This document shows, in pieces, positions 36,838 through 45,418 of a stretch of 64,000 nucleotides of DNA. Within the stretch, counting starts at the first letter, position 1; each line of letters opens with the position of its first letter. The DNA comes from Tropicibacter oceani. GTDB lineage: Bacteria > Pseudomonadota > Alphaproteobacteria > Rhodobacterales > Rhodobacteraceae. The DNA is taken from the NCBI RefSeq assembly GCF_029958925.1, contig NZ_CP124616.1, positions 2,170,001 to 2,234,000 on the forward strand. The letters run 5' to 3'. The position numbers were made by a program, and so were the translations under genes. Under the pieces are notes generated by a model that worked only from the letters and a program-made list of their open reading frames with translations, searched no databases and was not told the DNA's origin.

Positions 36838-37515
36838 TTGGCGCGCGTTTTGACAGTTCTGGCGGTGGCTTTGATCGCCCTGGCCCTTGGGGCCTGGGGG
36901 GCGGGGGCTTGGCCTGCGCGGATGCTTTGCCAGGCGGGGGATTGCACGTCGCCGGGCGCCGGGGATGGCTGTCTTGTGCAGGACGAAGGCGGGTGCCTGT
37001 GGCCTGCCGCCTCGGACGGAGTGCGCCAGAAGCGCGACCGCGACAAGGGCCATGCCGGCGACGAAGGGGTGATCATGCGCGATGGCCAGCCCGCGCCCAG
37101 GCATGAATGCACTGCCTGCCATGACGAACCCGACCTGCTGCCCGAGGCGCATCTGCCCACGGCAGGCATGTCGATGGACGGATGCCGGATATGCCACGGC
37201 ACCGATCAGGCGGCTTCGCTTGATGATCGGCTGTTTCAAAGTCACAGCCATTTCTTTGCGGACATCGGCTGTGCCACCTGCCACCAGGACCCGGCCGCGC
37301 CCGAAACGCCCGACACGGCCCTGTGCACATCCTGTCATGGATCGCTTGAGGATCTGGGCGCGCTGACCCGGCATCTTGAGGATACGGTCGGCGCCAACCC
37401 CCATTCAACGCCGCATGGGGCGCCCTTTGCCAATTGCGCGCTTTGCCATCATCAGCACGAACCGGCGGTCAATTTCTGCGCCAAGTGCCATGATTTCGAT
37501 TTCACGATGCCCTGA
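36838..37515 (+). CDS. hexahaem c-type cytochrome, membrane-anchored or secreted
   Basis: A 225-residue protein with an N-terminal hydrophobic segment (residues 3-25) and six CXXCH haem-attachment motifs with the Cys at 91, 116, 145, 163, 200 and 214. Several extra His residues (for example AH at 104-105, SHSH at 135-138 and HH at 204-205) could serve as distal ligands. Four more Cys (31, 36, 45, 53) sit between the anchor and the first haem and may form disulfides or another centre. The start used is TTG behind an AGAGGG site. The next gene encodes an outer-membrane barrel with two haem motifs, so the two may form an electron path across the periplasm. No exact family is recognised. Confidence 0.85.
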   Translation: MARVLTVLAVALIALALGAWGAGAWPARMLCQAGDCTSPGAGDGCLVQDEGGCLWPAASDGVRQKRDRDKGHAGDEGVIMRDGQPAPRHECTACHDEPDLLPEAHLPTAGMSMDGCRICHGTDQAASLDDRLFQSHSHFFADIGCATCHQDPAAPETPDTALCTSCHGSLEDLGALTRHLEDTVGANPHSTPHGAPFANCALCHHQHEPAVNFCAKCHDFDFTMP

Positions 37516-37570
37516 GTGCGGCGCAAGGTGCCTGGACCAGAACCGCTTTGGACAACAAGGAAGGAACGCC

Positions 37571-39076
37571 ATGTTTCGCAAATTCATCATTCTGGTCGGC
37601 ACGGTAGCGGCGCTTGGCACGGCGGGGGCAGCCCTGGCCACGCCCCAGTTGGGGGATGATTGCAAGGCCTGCCATGCGAACAACCGCTTTCTTCCGCCCG
37701 CGCATCCGAACATCGACGCGATGAGCTCGGCCACCTGCAAGACATGCCATGTCGCCACCATGAGCCAGGACCAAAGCCGCGACACCCAGCAAACGCAGGA
37801 GCGCGAGCAGGACCGCGAACAGGTTCAGGATCAGGACCGCGACCAGCAGCGCGATCAGGACCGCCGCCAGATACGTCTGGGCGGCGACCCGGGGGCCAAC
37901 CCCCTGGGCACGCATTCCGCCGCGCGCGTCGCCAACCCGGGCCAGGAAATCGAACGCTACCTGGAGCAGGAGCGGGAAGGGGCGCACAGCGCCGAAACCG
38001 GCAGTGGCGGCGACGCCGGGCAAAGCGAGGATCACGACTTCAGCCATGAGTTCAACCATGGCGACACGCGTCTGGCGGAAAAGGCGGACAAATGGACCTA
38101 TCGGCTGGTCTTTGGCGCCTTGCACTCTTCGGACATCGACCAGCATCAATCGGCCTCGGGCATGGGCGGCGGAGGCGGCCATGACGGCGGCGGCCACGAG
38201 GGCGGCGGTCACGAAGGCGGCGGCCATGAGGACGATGGCGATTGGGGCGATGGCGGCGACGGGGACGGCAATGGCAACGGCTCCGGCAAGGGTGCAGGCG
38301 GCGGTGGCGGCACGGTTACGGATGGCGGGTTTTTCCGCCTTGGGGCACGGGCGCAATACACCCAGGCGCTGGGCGACACCCAGACGCTGGCCTACAGCTT
38401 TGCGCTGAACCGCGACCAGTTCTGGGGCATTGAGCAAACCCGCCATGTCTGGCGCGCCGGTCTGGACTGGAAAGGCCGGCTGGACGACGGCAGCTGGAAA
38501 ATCGCGCCCTATCTGCAACGCTCGACCTATGACATCGAACAGGCCCCGGACAAGGCGTTCTGGGCTCTTGGCCTGAACGCCAACCGCACGCTGATCACCT
38601 CGCCGACGGGCTCGCTCAGCTTTACCTTTCGCTACAAGCAGCGGCGCTATGACGGAGAACCGCAGCCGCGCGCCGGGGATTTCCGCATCGGCGCGGTCTA
38701 CCAGGACCGCCTGGGCGAAGAGGGCCGCTATCGGCTTGGCCTGGGGCTGAGCGATCGCAACAATCCCCAAAAGGACGAAAACCGCTATTTCGGCCAGGTC
38801 CTGACGGCGGCCATCGGCGGCGATCCGGGCAATGGCGCGCTGGGATGGCTGGACATGGAGCTGGGGCACCGGCGTTACAAGGCACCGGATGCGGCGCTGG
38901 GATACACAAGGGACGACCGGTTTTTCGGGGTCGGGGCGTCCTATTCGGACCCGCGCATGACGCTGTTCTCGGCGGTTCCGCAATTCGCCTGTCACCTGCG
39001 ATGGACCCAGTCGAACATGGCGGCCTACGACGGCCGATCCAGCCGCTGTTCGGTCCTGTTCGAGGTGCGGTTCTGA
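37571..39076 (+). CDS. outer-membrane beta-barrel protein with N-terminal dihaem domain
   Basis: A 501-residue chimera. A signal peptide (1-23) is followed by two CXXCH motifs (C31-H35, C56-H60), a Gln/Asp/Arg-rich linker (about 65-102), an acidic/His part and a Gly/His repeat (GGGHEGGGHEGGGHE, about 206-220). From about residue 252 to the end come alternating beta strands ending in VLFEVRF, a typical barrel C-terminus. The barrel resembles the DUF560/Slam type (ELGHRRYKAPD, SNMAAYDGRSSR). ATG 37571 with AAGGAA is the start. The dihaem head is similar to the first two haems of the upstream cytochrome. The combination is unusual; electron transfer to the cell surface is inferred. Confidence 0.82.
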   Translation: MFRKFIILVGTVAALGTAGAALATPQLGDDCKACHANNRFLPPAHPNIDAMSSATCKTCHVATMSQDQSRDTQQTQEREQDREQVQDQDRDQQRDQDRRQIRLGGDPGANPLGTHSAARVANPGQEIERYLEQEREGAHSAETGSGGDAGQSEDHDFSHEFNHGDTRLAEKADKWTYRLVFGALHSSDIDQHQSASGMGGGGGHDGGGHEGGGHEGGGHEDDGDWGDGGDGDGNGNGSGKGAGGGGGTVTDGGFFRLGARAQYTQALGDTQTLAYSFALNRDQFWGIEQTRHVWRAGLDWKGRLDDGSWKIAPYLQRSTYDIEQAPDKAFWALGLNANRTLITSPTGSLSFTFRYKQRRYDGEPQPRAGDFRIGAVYQDRLGEEGRYRLGLGLSDRNNPQKDENRYFGQVLTAAIGGDPGNGALGWLDMELGHRRYKAPDAALGYTRDDRFFGVGASYSDPRMTLFSAVPQFACHLRWTQSNMAAYDGRSSRCSVLFEVRF

Positions 39077-39494: not shown

Positions 39495-40544
39495 GGCTCT
39501 GTTGCACAAATCGGCTGAACGCCGAGTTTCCCCTTTCCCCGGGCGGACTTATCCTACGACTTCCGTGACGGGCATGCCGAGCGCGGTGTAGCCGTTCAGG
39601 ACGGCAATGCGGACCTGGAGTTCCGCGACCTGGCGGTCGAAGTCCCGCGCCATGAGCCGCTGGCCCAGCAACTTCATACAATGCATTTTTGTCTCGACGC
39701 GGCTTCGGCGGTGGTATCCGCTCCATCGTCGCCAGAGTGCGCGGCCCAGGTATTTCGCCGCGCGCAAGGCCTCGTTTCGCGCCACGGCTCCGGCGGTGAT
39801 CGTCTTCCAGGGCTTCGCGTTTTTGCGGGGCGGGATGACGGCATGGGCGCCGCGATCTGCAATCGCATCGTGGCATTTGCGCGTGTCGTAGGCGCCATCA
39901 GCCGTGACGCTACCGATTTCCTGGTCCTGCGGGATTTGGTCGAGAAGGTCGGGTAGGATCGGCGCATCACCGATGTGGCTCCCGGTGATTTCGACGGCCC
40001 GAACCTCCAGCGTTTCCTCATCAATCCCCAAGTGGATCTTGCGCCAGACGCGGCGTTTAGGGCCGCCATGCTTGCGGGCGTGCCACTCGCCTTCGCCCTC
40101 GACCTTGATCCCGGTGCTGTCTATCAACAGGTGCAACGGCCCCTTGGAGCCGCGGTATGGGATGTTGACGGCCAAGGTCTTCTGGCGGCGAGATAGCGTG
40201 CTGAAGTCGGGCACCGTCCAGTTCAGACCGACCAGCTGCAGCAGGCTCTCGACGAACCCGGTCGTCTGCCGGAGCGCCATGCCGAACAGCACTTTCATCG
40301 AGAGGCACGTCTGTATGGCGGCGTCGCTATAGCTCTGCTGGCGGCCACGCCTGCCTGTCGGCACGGCATCCCAGATCATCTCAGGGTCGAACCAGATCGT
40401 CAGCGAGCCCCGGCGCTTGAGCGCTTCATTGTAGGCTGGCCAGTTTCTGGTCTTGTAGGTCGGGGGTATGGGTCTGCTCATGCATCCCAGCTACCACGCT
40501 GGATTCACGAGATGAATCCCTCACGCGATTTGTGCAACAGAGCC
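39495..40544 (-). mobile_element. IS5-family insertion sequence
   Basis: A 1,050-bp element with near-perfect terminal inverted repeats GGCTCTGTTGCACAAATC (39495-39512) and its complement (40527-40544). It encodes one intact transposase on the minus strand. No matching target duplication is visible at the two flanks (GCTT left, ATCG right), which suggests loss by an adjacent deletion. The downstream haloperoxidase reading frame begins exactly at its right end. Confidence 0.9.
39549..40481 (-). CDS. IS5-family transposase
   Basis: An intact 310-residue DDE transposase. An N-terminal DUF772-type region (NWPAYNEALKRRGSLTIWFD, SYSDAAIQTCLSMKVLFG) is followed by the catalytic core with LIDSTGIKV (first Asp), VTADGAYDTRKCHDAI (second Asp) and YHRRSRVETKMHCMK, which fits the Y-2-R-3-E-6-K signature of the IS5/IS4 group. 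It fills most of the 1,050-bp element, so the element may still be active. Confidence 0.93.
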   Translation of the reverse strand: MSRPIPPTYKTRNWPAYNEALKRRGSLTIWFDPEMIWDAVPTGRRGRQQSYSDAAIQTCLSMKVLFGMALRQTTGFVESLLQLVGLNWTVPDFSTLSRRQKTLAVNIPYRGSKGPLHLLIDSTGIKVEGEGEWHARKHGGPKRRVWRKIHLGIDEETLEVRAVEITGSHIGDAPILPDLLDQIPQDQEIGSVTADGAYDTRKCHDAIADRGAHAVIPPRKNAKPWKTITAGAVARNEALRAAKYLGRALWRRWSGYHRRSRVETKMHCMKLLGQRLMARDFDRQVAELQVRIAVLNGYTALGMPVTEVVG

Positions 40545-41060
40545 ATCGGTGACGACAAAAACCTCTATGACAATCGCTATCCGGCCGGGCTGTTCGGCGC
40601 CGAGCGCCCTCTGACGCTCATGCATGAACAGTATCTGGGGCTGGACAAAGAGGGAAGGAAGGCCGTGCCGTTTGCCACGGCGGTCGTGCCGGACCCGGAC
40701 AGCGAATACACAAAGCTGAAGCCGATCAGCGAGACGCTGACAATCCAGCACGAACTGGACAAGCTGGCGGCCAATATCTCCATCGGGCGCAACTTTGCCG
40801 GGGTGCATTTCTACACCGACTACTATGAATCGCTGCGCATGGGTGAGCGGCTGGCGGTGTCCATCCTGCAAGAGCAGATGCTGACCTATCGCGAGCCGGT
40901 GTCGATGCGGTTCACCTCGTTCGACGGCGATCGGATCATGATCGTCGGGACGGGCGGAACTCGCAATCAGGACGATGCGGCTGTGCTGGTCTGGGATGCG
41001 GACGGCAATGGCGGCACGCGGGCCGACCTCGACGCGTGGTGGTCGCGCCACAACGGCTGA
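40545..41060 (+). pseudogene. vanadium-dependent haloperoxidase/PAP2-like gene, 5' part lost to the IS
   Basis: About 170 codons of a C-terminal haloperoxidase-like domain. It retains YDNRYPAGLFGAERPLTLMH and the metal-site motif NISIGRNFAGVHFYTDYYE, whose Arg and His are the vanadate-binding residues, plus QEQMLTYREPVSMRFTSFDG. The N-terminal part, including the Lys/Arg-Pro and Ser-Gly-His motifs, is missing. The frame joins the IS end, and an ATG inside the IS could drive an inactive fragment. It precedes the other island genes in the same direction. Confidence 0.75.
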
Positions 41061-41135: not shown

Positions 41136-41585
41136 ATGGAAAAGTTGAAGGAATACAGCGCCATGGGTGCGTTGGTAATCGTTATCGCCTTTCTCGGGTT
41201 CGCCTATTACCTGGTCGGTCAGGCGTCGGCGGATGCCGAGACCTGGAACCGGCTGTTTTCGCTTTTTTCCAGTCTGGAAGCCCTGGGCTTTGCGGCGGCG
41301 GGGCTGCTGCTTGGCCGATCTGTGGGTTTGCCCGGCGCGCGGGCCATTGACGCACTGCAACGCGAGAACGCGCAATTGAGCGCCGAGTCGACCACCATGC
41401 GGCACGTGACGGAAGAACTCGAAAGCGATCTTCAGGCGGCCCGGGACATCCTGAGCGACGAATCCGAACTGGCTTCGAAGCGTATCGATGCTGTCGATGC
41501 GGTGACACGCGCGCTGATGCGCACGTCGACCGCCCGCGCAACCGCCATAACCGAAATGACGCAATTGAAAGGAGCAGGCGCATGA
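41136..41585 (+). CDS. small membrane protein with coiled coil, peroxidase operon
   Basis: A 149-residue protein with two N-terminal transmembrane helices (about 10-30 and 40-60) and a C-terminal coiled coil from about residue 70 (IDALQRENAQLSAESTTMRH). No family is recognised. GGAGGA precedes the ATG. Its stop overlaps the next start (ATGA), so it is translated together with the 466-residue protein; it could anchor that protein to the membrane, which is speculation. Confidence 0.75.
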   Translation: MEKLKEYSAMGALVIVIAFLGFAYYLVGQASADAETWNRLFSLFSSLEALGFAAAGLLLGRSVGLPGARAIDALQRENAQLSAESTTMRHVTEELESDLQAARDILSDESELASKRIDAVDAVTRALMRTSTARATAITEMTQLKGAGA

Positions 41586-42982
41586 CCTGGACATTCAACT
41601 CGCCGGGATACGTCACGGATTTCACCGATCCCGGAAAATGGCACGAAGAAATGGCACAAACGGCGGGCGGAATCGTCTTTCAGCTGGCTGCCGAAGTGCT
41701 GGGACGCAATCCTCAGACCCAAGCCGAACTGGAGGCGCTGCGCCCGCAGCTGGGTTATGTAGATCCGACCGAAGAGGCGGTACCCGAAGGGGCCGAGACG
41801 GTTGCCACGGCACAATGGTTTGGCTTTCCGCAATCGGTTGAACGACGCGATTGGTCGGATATCACTCAGGCGCAGCTTGTCGACGATCCGCAGGGATTTT
41901 ACCGCGCGGTCGAGGACCTGGGGCAGGAGGATATCGGAAACGCCCGCATCTATGACCGTCTGGGACATCTCTACGAGCTTCCTGTCCGGCACCGGCAGGA
42001 TGAATATCTCGAATGGCGGGTCTCCGAGGGACAACGCGAGATCACTTTCGTCAGCGAAGGTTACGATTATTTCAGCGCGCTTTTTGACGCCGACGAAGAC
42101 GCCGTCGTGACCCTGTACCGGGAATTTCTGAAGACCGATGCGATCACTGCCGACGATCTGCGCGCGCCGCAGGGGCTGTTTTTCCGCTCAACCCGCGGGG
42201 AGCATACGATTGCCCGCCCAGGCGGGTTCAACCCGCGCAACCGCTTCAACATCTTCGGCGGCATTTGCCACCTGAGCCACCGGGCCAATTCGCTTGGGGC
42301 GGAGGTCAACCTTGCCGGTGTATCGGCCCTGGCACGCGTGGCCTCGGACGGTGAGCTGGTCGCTGCGGACAATGCCGAGCGCATCATCTGTTGCAGCAGT
42401 GGAGGCGATCCGAACCGCAACAGCGACCCCGGGATCGCGCGCGACGCCTACACGCAGGTGCTGGATGGCTATCGCTATACGCTGGCCGATCCGGTCGGGC
42501 TTTATATTGCGGATGTCGCCTTTACGCAGCTCCGGCTGCCGGACGAAACCCAGCCGGTGCCGCGCGCGTGGTGGCATGAAGAGCGCGGTGCAGGCCGGCT
42601 GAACACGGACGACTCGCGCATTCTACGCGTTACGCTGCGCATCCCCGACGGTGAAACCTATCAAGGGCGGCCCATGACCCTGAGTGACCTGACCATCGGG
42701 GGCAGCCCCGTGCGCTTTCCGGGTCAACTGGCCGAACTTGTAAAGGTGCATCTCTACGTGACACGCTGGGCGCGCGACGGCGGCGGGGTTGGTCCCAGGG
42801 TCCGATGCATCGGAACCTGTTGCGCCGGACAGGGATCGGCCTTTCTGTTGCCAACGTCCAGCGGGTGCGGGCAGGGGCTGACCGATCAGTTCCCCGGCCT
42901 GATCGGACCGGCGGAGCCTGGCAATATGATGAGCGTTGCGCCCATGGGTGGCGCGCCTGGCGCCCGGGATGCACGCCGGTGA
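41582..42982 (+). CDS. unknown 466-residue protein of the peroxidase operon
   Basis: A soluble protein with no signal peptide and no family I can name. It has a mixed composition with two Cys-rich spots: ERIICCSSGGDPNRN near residue 275 and VRCIGTCCAG near residue 410, followed by SSGCGQG. Other distinctive stretches are FNIFGGICHLSHRANSLGAE and ITFVSEGYDYFSALFDADED. Both ends overlap neighbouring genes by four bases (ATGA and GTGA), so it is a fixed part of the unit ending in a DyP peroxidase. The Cys-rich C-terminal 60 residues might alternatively reflect a frameshift, which I cannot resolve. Confidence 0.7.
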   Translation: MTWTFNSPGYVTDFTDPGKWHEEMAQTAGGIVFQLAAEVLGRNPQTQAELEALRPQLGYVDPTEEAVPEGAETVATAQWFGFPQSVERRDWSDITQAQLVDDPQGFYRAVEDLGQEDIGNARIYDRLGHLYELPVRHRQDEYLEWRVSEGQREITFVSEGYDYFSALFDADEDAVVTLYREFLKTDAITADDLRAPQGLFFRSTRGEHTIARPGGFNPRNRFNIFGGICHLSHRANSLGAEVNLAGVSALARVASDGELVAADNAERIICCSSGGDPNRNSDPGIARDAYTQVLDGYRYTLADPVGLYIADVAFTQLRLPDETQPVPRAWWHEERGAGRLNTDDSRILRVTLRIPDGETYQGRPMTLSDLTIGGSPVRFPGQLAELVKVHLYVTRWARDGGGVGPRVRCIGTCCAGQGSAFLLPTSSGCGQGLTDQFPGLIGPAEPGNMMSVAPMGGAPGARDARR

Positions 42983-44376
42983 CCCCGGTCGATCTGGAGG
43001 CGGTCCAGGGGAACGTGCTGGCGGGTTTCAACACAGCCCATCAGGTGTTTCTCGGGCTGCGCCTTGACGAAGGTGCCGATCTTGCACCGGTCCGCGAGAT
43101 GATGGCGCTGCTCGCGGGGCAGGTAACATCGCACGCTGAGGTCTGGCGCGACCGCAAAGTCATGAAGGATCCTGTTGAGTGCATCGGACGCAGCTGGCTC
43201 TGCGTTGGCTTGGGGCAGGCGTTGCTGAAACGCCTGCGCCCGGATGTCACCTTCTTCAGTAAATCCTTCCGGAACGGTTACGCGGCGCGCCGGTTCTTGC
43301 TGCAGGATCTTTCGCAGCCAGACAGCTGGCGGTTCGGGGGCGCGGCCGCGACGCGGCTCGACATGCTCTTTATCGTTGCCGGCAACGACCGGGGCAGCAC
43401 CCAAGAGGCCGCCGCCCGCCATCTGGCGAGGGCTCAAGAAGCCGGGTTTGCCAGGTTGTGGCAAGAGGAAGGGGCCCGCATTCCCGGCGACAAGGAGCAT
43501 TTCGGCTTTCGCGACGGGATAGCACAGCCGCGCCCAGCACTCGGCCATGGCGACGACCCTGAAGATGCCCAGGCGCCGGGGCAATTCATATTAGGTTATG
43601 AGAACGCGTTGGGAGAGGCGCCACCGGCCCTGGCCAGTGGCACGCGGCTGTTTTCCGATGCGGGAAGCTTCATGCAGTTGCGCCGTCTGATCCAGAAGCC
43701 GGATGCGTTCCACGGGTTCTGCCAGGATACGGCGGCGCAGTTGGCGCCGGACTGGCCGGGGCTGACCGCAGAACAGGTCGCCGCGATCATCGTCGGGCGC
43801 TGGCCGGACGGGACGCTGGTGGACACGAACAACGACGGTCTGATGGCCGCGTTGGACGGCCTTGACGCCTTTGACTTTTCAGTTGCCGCGCAAGCCGGTG
43901 GTTGTCCAACAGGTGCGCATATCCGCAAGACGAACCCTCGCCGGGGTCCGTCCGACCAGGCGGTTCCGGCCCATCAGCGATTCCTGCGGCGCGGTATCCC
44001 GTTCGACAACGGCCCCGATGACCGTGGGCTGCTGTTCGTGGCGTTCCAGTCCGATCCCGAGATGCAGGTCGATTTTGTAACCGCCAACTGGATGAACAGT
44101 GAAAGCTGCCCGGGGCGGGGCCATGACCTTCTTGTAGGTACGACGCCTGGCCCCCGCAGTATCGACGTTAGCCGCAACGGTACCTCGATCCGGATCGAAG
44201 GCGGCGACAACGAATGGATTATTCCCGACGGCGGCGCTTACCTGTTCGCGCCCAGTATTCCCGCCATTGCGGCGCTCGACTCTGCGCCTGGAGCCGTGAA
44301 AGGGTTCATGTCGTCGATGGCCGGCCGTGTCCGCAGCGGCTTGTTCGACTTGACGCGAAGCGCTCGCCGGCGCTGA
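42979..44376 (+). CDS. DyP-type haem peroxidase
   Basis: A 465-residue dye-decolourising peroxidase. It has the catalytic GFRDG motif (with the distal Asp and nearby Arg) near residue 175, the proximal haem His in CPTGAHIRKTNPR near residue 315, and the C-terminal GLLFVAFQSDPEMQVDFV. The GTG start overlaps the previous stop by four bases (GTGA) and is followed directly by DLEAVQGNVL, a typical DyP N-terminus. There is no signal peptide, so it is cytoplasmic unless exported with a partner. It uses peroxide to oxidise bulky substrates; the physiological one is unknown. Confidence 0.92.
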   Translation: MTPVDLEAVQGNVLAGFNTAHQVFLGLRLDEGADLAPVREMMALLAGQVTSHAEVWRDRKVMKDPVECIGRSWLCVGLGQALLKRLRPDVTFFSKSFRNGYAARRFLLQDLSQPDSWRFGGAAATRLDMLFIVAGNDRGSTQEAAARHLARAQEAGFARLWQEEGARIPGDKEHFGFRDGIAQPRPALGHGDDPEDAQAPGQFILGYENALGEAPPALASGTRLFSDAGSFMQLRRLIQKPDAFHGFCQDTAAQLAPDWPGLTAEQVAAIIVGRWPDGTLVDTNNDGLMAALDGLDAFDFSVAAQAGGCPTGAHIRKTNPRRGPSDQAVPAHQRFLRRGIPFDNGPDDRGLLFVAFQSDPEMQVDFVTANWMNSESCPGRGHDLLVGTTPGPRSIDVSRNGTSIRIEGGDNEWIIPDGGAYLFAPSIPAIAALDSAPGAVKGFMSSMAGRVRSGLFDLTRSARRR

Positions 44377-44522: not shown

Positions 44523-45418
44523 TGAGGTGCCCCTAGTCTCCCAGACACCTGCCTTGTTCAGCTTCTGCTGTCTGATCTCATAGTCAACGGGCGACAGCAT
44601 GCTGTTGTTCGTGTGCTTGCGTTTCGGGTTGTAGAACCTCTCGATGTATTCGAACACGTCCTGCCTTGCGGCCTCGCGTGTGGGGTACGTACGGCGCCTG
44701 ATCCGTTCCCGCTTCAGGAGCTGAAAAGAAGCTCTCGGCGACCGCATTGTCATGGCAGGTCCCACGTCGGCTCATGCTTGCATCCAAACCGTGCTGGATG
44801 CGAAATGTTTGCCACTCACGGCTGGTGAACTGCGATCCTTGATCCGAATGGATCATGACCTTTTGCTTTGGCTTGCGACGCCAGGCGGCCGCCAGCAGCG
44901 CCTGCAACGCCAAATCCGTCGTCATCCGCGACTGGGCCGACCACCGAACGACACGCCTTGAGAACAGATCGATGACGACGGAAAGGTAAAGCCAGCCTTC
45001 ATGGGTTGTGATGCAAGTGATATCTGTCACCCAAACTGTGTCGGGCGCGTCGACTTCGACCTGGCGATCCAGCGTATTCTCCATAACGATCGCCGGCGAG
45101 CCGCCATATCGACCAGGACGACGCCTGTATCCAATCTGCGCGGCAATACCAGCCAGGCCGGCCAAACGCGCGACACGGTTCTTCTAGCAGGCCTCACCTT
45201 GATCACACAGATCGTCGTGCAGCTTGCGATAGCCATAGACCTTGCCGCTGTCCGTCCAGGCCTGACGGATCAATTCGGTCTGCCGCGCATCTTCCTGCGC
45301 GCTGGCTTAACGGTTCCTTAAGCCACGCATGGAAGCCGCTGACGTGGACCATCAACACGTGGCACATCGTCCGAACTGAAAACTCTGACCGATGAGCCCG
45401 GATGAAGCCATACTTCAA
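44523..45418 (-). pseudogene. IS3-family transposase orfB, broken
   Basis: OrfB (integrase core) starts with TTG overlapping the orfA stop (MKYGFIRAHRSEF). It is interrupted by a frameshift near 45300, an in-frame TAG at 45186-45188, and a second frameshift near 44735. Between these lie recognisable core motifs: VWVTDITCITTHEGWLYLS (Asp), HSDQGSQFTSREW (Asp) and NAVAESFF (Glu), with the C-terminus (YIERFYNPKRKHTNNSMLSP) in another frame. No functional transposase can be made without extensive recoding. Confidence 0.85.

Follow-up and report, generated by a model that had tools for sequence, protein, structure and literature searches.

What might an outer-membrane barrel do with haem groups of its own, and which electron-transfer proteins would it serve? 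The question is raised by two adjacent genes in a 64,000-nucleotide stretch of the Tropicibacter oceani genome (NZ_CP124616.1, positions 2,170,001 to 2,234,000; hereafter the window, within which all coordinates are given unless stated otherwise), the first encoding a hexahaem cytochrome (gene A) and the second a barrel preceded by a dihaem head (gene B). An earlier note, made from the sequence, had proposed either a compact conduit across the outer membrane or a Slam-like exporter adapted to a redox task, and knew of no described system with this arrangement. Here we set out what the two proteins contain, how far they are conserved and which of several readings the evidence favours.

Haem motifs in the cytochrome and in the barrel's head

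Gene A (36838–37515, forward strand) encodes a c-type cytochrome of 225 amino acids with a TTG start and an N-terminal hydrophobic export signal, and contains six CXXCH motifs, at residues 91, 116, 145, 163, 200 and 214. Its tetrahaem part (residues 138–219; 37249–37494, forward strand) belongs to Cytochrom_c3_2 (Pfam match of A to PF14537, E = 1.2e-14), the module present in flavocytochrome c, and A also matches the haem domain of the Shewanella flavocytochrome c fumarate reductase. Outside the CXXCH motifs, exactly six histidines are invariant in eight hexahaem homologues, a number sufficient for six bis-His haems. Inspection by eye found no lipobox in A or its homologues, and a role for A as a surface lipoprotein was rejected on that ground.

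Gene B (37571–39076, forward strand; 501 amino acids) starts 55 bases 3' of A, exactly the spacing first reported, and the intergenic gap (37516–37570, forward strand) holds an AAGGA ribosome-binding-like stretch ahead of the ATG; a promoter and terminator scan returned signals not above chance. After a signal peptide (residues 1–23; 37571–37639, forward strand), assigned from sequence and alignment with its cleavage site judged by eye, comes the dihaem head (37640–37762, forward strand), in which CKACH (37661–37675) and CKTCH (37736–37750), at residues 31 and 56, stand on either side of His45 (37703–37705). The counts of six and two motifs given in the earlier note thus hold, and they were reached in none of 20,000 composition shuffles of either protein; a stronger argument than these statistics is that both motifs of B are kept in its four orthologues, and shuffles and conservation together rule out a chance origin. 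Among open stretches of more than 60 codons within the window, no protein besides A and B has two or more CXXCH motifs.

The head of B has a homologue in A itself, whose first dihaem module (residues 85–124; 37090–37209, forward strand) aligns with B residues 25–64 (hhalign probability 92, E = 7.9e-7), and a profile of B independently matches the first dihaem of A (E = 1.7e-4) and that of a second hexahaem cytochrome, encoded on another contig of the same genome (C2). A related side observation concerns the cytochrome of an orthologous locus in genome G263 (L048 9146–10153, minus strand), which is octahaem, with one dihaem module more at the N-terminus, of the barrel-head kind.

For its two haems the head of B provides a single invariant histidine, His45, as candidate ligand outside the motifs. 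The sole other invariant histidine of the protein is His192 (38144–38146), just past the first barrel strand, where SlipAM relatives have other residues. Because only one conserved histidine of the head is available for two haems, one of them may have a free ligand site, or may be capped by His192 of the barrel or by a partner protein. An open head haem that binds a gas or other ligand, together with a His-rich loop that binds metal, would make B a haem or redox sensor or a metal scavenger with no respiratory role. The missing conserved distal ligand and a Gly/His/acidic loop predicted to lie outside the cell are compatible with this idea, but electron-transfer cytochromes are constant partners of the barrel and the conserved unit contains no regulator, and we consider it very improbable.

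A SlipAM-family barrel without its TPR domain

Between head and barrel lies a linker (37763–38092, forward strand) that is rich in Gln, Asp and Arg across 37763–37876, as had been noticed before, with 13 Q, 8 D and 8 R among the 38 residues from 65 to 102. It is predicted, at low confidence, to be partly helical; AlphaFold2 models, made free of haem for the window protein and for the shorter G263 orthologue, give head and linker low confidence both times, with a pLDDT of about 50–60 for the head, and did not place the head relative to the barrel. For the same two proteins 14 strands are predicted, most at a pLDDT of about 90 or more: strand 1 spans residues 175–186 (38093–38128, forward strand), and strands 2–14 run from residue 252 to the final Phe (38324–39073, forward strand). 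The Gly/His stretch described in the earlier note is present, although not between linker and barrel as stated there; it sits in the Gly/His/Asp-rich loop joining strands 1 and 2 (38129–38323, forward strand), which is predicted, on the usual topology, to lie outside the cell. Since the number of strands is even and the C-terminus is in the periplasm, the head would be periplasmic and the Gly/His loop extracellular. Four of the five orthologues, B included, have a His-rich sequence here; the fifth does not.

By sequence, B had no meaningful match among solved structures, and Foldseek gave OmpG (TM up to 0.69 by target), CymA and FadL as the best matches of its barrel. All three are closed barrels of 14 strands, and because they are the best fold matches we infer that the predicted barrel of B is closed as well. 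Strand number also bears on the proposed conduit. Like MtrAB, MtoAB and PioAB, the pair A and B joins an outer-membrane barrel to a multihaem cytochrome, here one that adjoins a barrel carrying haems itself, and haems of A or B might be pictured along the inside of the barrel, leading electrons to the cell surface. In MtrAB-type complexes, however, the barrel has 26 strands and encloses a separate decahaem protein (PMC8406198), whereas the present barrel has 14 and its cytochrome is a hexahaem. Because the two haem sites of B lie N-terminal to the barrel and no part is present that could carry haems across the membrane, an insulated wire of the MtrAB style, and with it the compact conduit of the earlier note, is unlikely; the unit also lacks a surface cytochrome. 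Strand number and haem count rule out such a wire as the main reading, and we hold it to be the least probable of those weighed here.

The barrel belongs to PF04575 (SlipAM, DUF560), which matches residues 295–501 above the curated cut-off (E = 4.7e-9) and is likewise above cut-off in all five orthologues. A C-terminal outer-membrane barrel ending in Phe and fused to haem motifs in one protein, as had been suspected, is thereby borne out. Homology to SlipAM extends along the full length of the barrel, with an SSN-type strand 1 motif and a pair of cysteines at the last strand, Cys474 and Cys493, that most SlipAM relatives have in common. The orthologues come from Pelagimonas varians (59% identity, measured against the window protein), Actibacterium lipolyticum (58%) and two further genomes of the same family, G263 (41%) and G279 (38%); in the set of five, B included, both CXXCH motifs, His45, His192, Cys474 and Cys493 are invariant. 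Neither outcome that the earlier note had named as a refutation was therefore observed, as a 14-strand barrel is predicted and the CXXCH motifs are conserved. None of 37 other SlipAM-family proteins found by profile (26 and 11) contains CXXCH, and the haem head is thus a trait of a small clade and not of the barrel family. In the family, 8 of 395 sampled genomes encode the hexahaem cytochrome, and the four genomes with a haem-headed barrel are all among those 8. Searches of 385 class-level and 388 phylum-level genomes found no haem-headed barrel beyond the family, the matches being CXXCH-less barrels or short fragments, and a second species of the genus has neither the hexahaem nor a haem-headed barrel.

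Membership of this family places B beside the type XI secretion system (T11SS) proteins Slam and NilB, to whose PF04575 barrel its own is homologous. T11SS proteins have an N-terminal periplasmic TPR domain (PMC8406197). A domain scan gave TPR matches ahead of the barrel in the one CXXCH-less SlipAM relative scanned but none in B or its orthologues, in which the dihaem head takes that place; with this feature missing, we do not file B as a T11SS protein. The simplest history would be that a SlipAM barrel exchanged its TPR domain for a dihaem module related to that of the cytochrome. The description of B as Slam-like accordingly holds at the level of the barrel family. As for export itself, the barrel might still be a T11SS/Slam translocon whose haem head, now in the TPR position, picks out the cytochrome or a flavoprotein and sends it to the cell surface, as the full-length homology, the strand 1 motif and the cysteine pair would allow. 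This we regard as improbable: besides the absent TPR domain and the absent lipobox in A and its homologues, a 14-strand pore would be hard to cross for a folded multihaem protein, and no gene for a TbpBBD-type cargo adjoins B, whose immediate neighbours encode the hexahaem, a DUF2585 protein and a transposase, joined in orthologous loci by a flavoprotein. The neighbours of B are redox genes, unlike those of SlipAM/T11SS proteins. One paper on T11SS cargo, which includes a cluster from Rhodobacteraceae, says nothing of cytochromes (PMC12282271).

Genomic setting and the flavoprotein

In all four orthologous loci the gene order is the same: a Tat flavoprotein of the flavocytochrome c or fumarate reductase type, a hexa- or octahaem cytochrome and the dihaem barrel. 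With the window included, the barrel adjoins a multihaem cytochrome in five of five loci and a flavoprotein in four, the window pair being flanked by the DUF2585 gene and the transposase with no flavoprotein there. Two transposase genes (39549–40481 and 44584–45165) flank the segment 40512–44376, which holds three open reading frames without a Pfam match (40512–41060, 41136–41585 and 41582–42982) and a gene for a Dyp-type peroxidase (42805–44376) whose frame overlaps the third. Ahead of their full-length flavoprotein gene, P. varians and A. lipolyticum each have the shortened N-terminus of a second one (L008 5004–5777 and L009 7386–7688), likely a gene remnant.

Contig C2, which is 116 kb long and may be a plasmid, encodes the genome's own flavoprotein at L018 8946–11198, with its own hexahaem and no adjoining barrel. 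This flavoprotein shares 84% identity with the A. lipolyticum one and is likely the missing partner of the window pair. At the limits used, PLSDB contained no plasmid relatives of B or of the A. lipolyticum flavoprotein. The C2 and A. lipolyticum flavoproteins, the only ones typed directly, match TIGR01813 (flavo_cyto_c) at E of about 1e-127 to 1e-130; the remaining ones share 55–83% identity with the C2 copy and have a twin-Arg start in common. The C2 flavoprotein aligns with the Shewanella fumarate reductase and with urocanate reductase, and it retains HHTMGG, ADR and GASRLG, aligned with active-site segments of fumarate reductase. Because it reads LGPWTSP where fumarate reductase has AHPTYSP, its substrate may be one other than fumarate. 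A NapC-type quinol dehydrogenase, encoded in the nap cluster of the genome, could feed such cytochromes. The chromosome holds two further flavoprotein genes paired with tetrahaem cytochromes (L020 4946–6897, and C1:2241718–2243511, just past the window end), which indicates several such periplasmic systems in this genome.

In combining a Tat-type flavoprotein with a multihaem cytochrome that has Cytochrom_c3_2, the orthologous loci resemble the methacrylate redox system Mrd/Mcc and the split or fused flavocytochromes c (FccA, UrdA). They differ from Mrd/Mcc in a cytochrome with two more haems and in the outer-membrane dihaem barrel; the Mrd/Mcc paper names no outer-membrane part (PMC4427408). 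The partnership of B with a flavocytochrome system is supported, and because orthologous loci pair the barrel with flavoprotein and cytochrome, the barrel is, judged from sequence, an addition to a periplasmic system whose kind is known (Mrd/Mcc, FccA-like).

What the barrel adds could be a way in for the enzyme's substrate, with electrons supplied from the inner membrane only. On this alternative B is a specific porin that admits an unsaturated acid of the acrylate, cinnamate or urocanate kind, and its dihaem head is a dock that holds the hexahaem-flavoprotein complex beneath the pore. Flavoproteins of this type are periplasmic reductases of acids of that kind (PMC4427408), the best fold matches of the barrel are small-solute channels and the flavoprotein linkage is constant in the orthologous loci. 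A dock, however, has no need of two invariant haem sites, the flavoprotein is not beside the window copy, and several flavoprotein-hexahaem pairs, those of G079, G237 and G142 among them, have no such barrel adjoining. We judge this alternative somewhat unlikely, if the most serious rival to the reading developed below.

A candidate outer-membrane redox port

Our preferred reading, which we put forward tentatively, is that B is the outer-membrane redox port of a periplasmic flavocytochrome system. The head would hang by its flexible linker at the periplasmic mouth of the pore and dock with the hexahaem; whatever got into the pore, be it a metal held by the outer His/Gly/acidic loop or a small redox-active solute, would donate electrons to the head haems or accept them; and the hexahaem would connect the head of B with the flavoprotein and, for example via NapC, with the quinol pool. 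The homologous dihaem module in head and hexahaem would favour similar potential and docking. Electron flow in either direction and an outside partner of B are both parts of this proposal. Conservation of the CXXCH motifs and of His45, adjacency to cytochrome and flavoprotein, co-occurrence with the hexahaem, the presence of a NapC-type protein, the 14-strand barrel predicted twice and the porin and channel matches argue for a port; we count against it the low-confidence models of the head, the orthologue whose loop is not His-rich and the flavoprotein that does not adjoin the window pair.

For a haem at a barrel mouth there is a precedent in Cyc2 of iron oxidisers, a fused cytochrome-porin whose barrel is predicted to have 16 strands and which carries a single haem and the motif AXPXFAR[Q/K][T/Y] before the haem site (PMC8406198); Cyc572 is probably another (PMC10654088). 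The arrangement is therefore less novel than first supposed, as in these proteins and in B alike a single chain carries a c-type haem motif on the N-terminal side of an outer-membrane barrel, with the haem periplasmic. B differs from Cyc2 in having two CXXCH motifs, in five of five orthologues, against one, 14 predicted strands against 16, and ATPQLGDDCKACH at the position of AXPXFAR[Q/K][T/Y], FAR being absent from every orthologue; its long linker, its barrel family and its flavocytochrome partner differ as well. With three defining features missing B is not a Cyc2, although by analogy it may work like one. The literature searched, which left most subscription papers outside, held no description of a flavoprotein-cytochrome-barrel cluster or of a cytochrome among T11SS proteins.

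The pair A and B is thus real and conserved, its parts ordinary and their combination unusual, and it is a variant of the fused cytochrome-porin plan. Possibly, though at somewhat less than even odds, B is an independently evolved member of that plan, in which a secretion-type barrel swapped its TPR domain for a haem module that its partner cytochrome also has, and so allowed electrons to pass between a periplasmic flavocytochrome and compounds or metals entering from outside. Because a periplasmic flavin enzyme accompanies the pair in relatives, the arrangement suggests a small means, of which we found no description, of coupling such an electron-transfer enzyme to the outer membrane. The reading also bears on the suggestion in the T11SS literature that function has changed in some members of the Rhodobacteraceae (PMC12282271). 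If it is true, fused cytochrome-porins have more than one origin, in this case a barrel family so far known for protein export, and marine Rhodobacteraceae, including Pelagimonas varians and Actibacterium lipolyticum, of which cultured strains exist, would gain a testable outer-membrane redox component.
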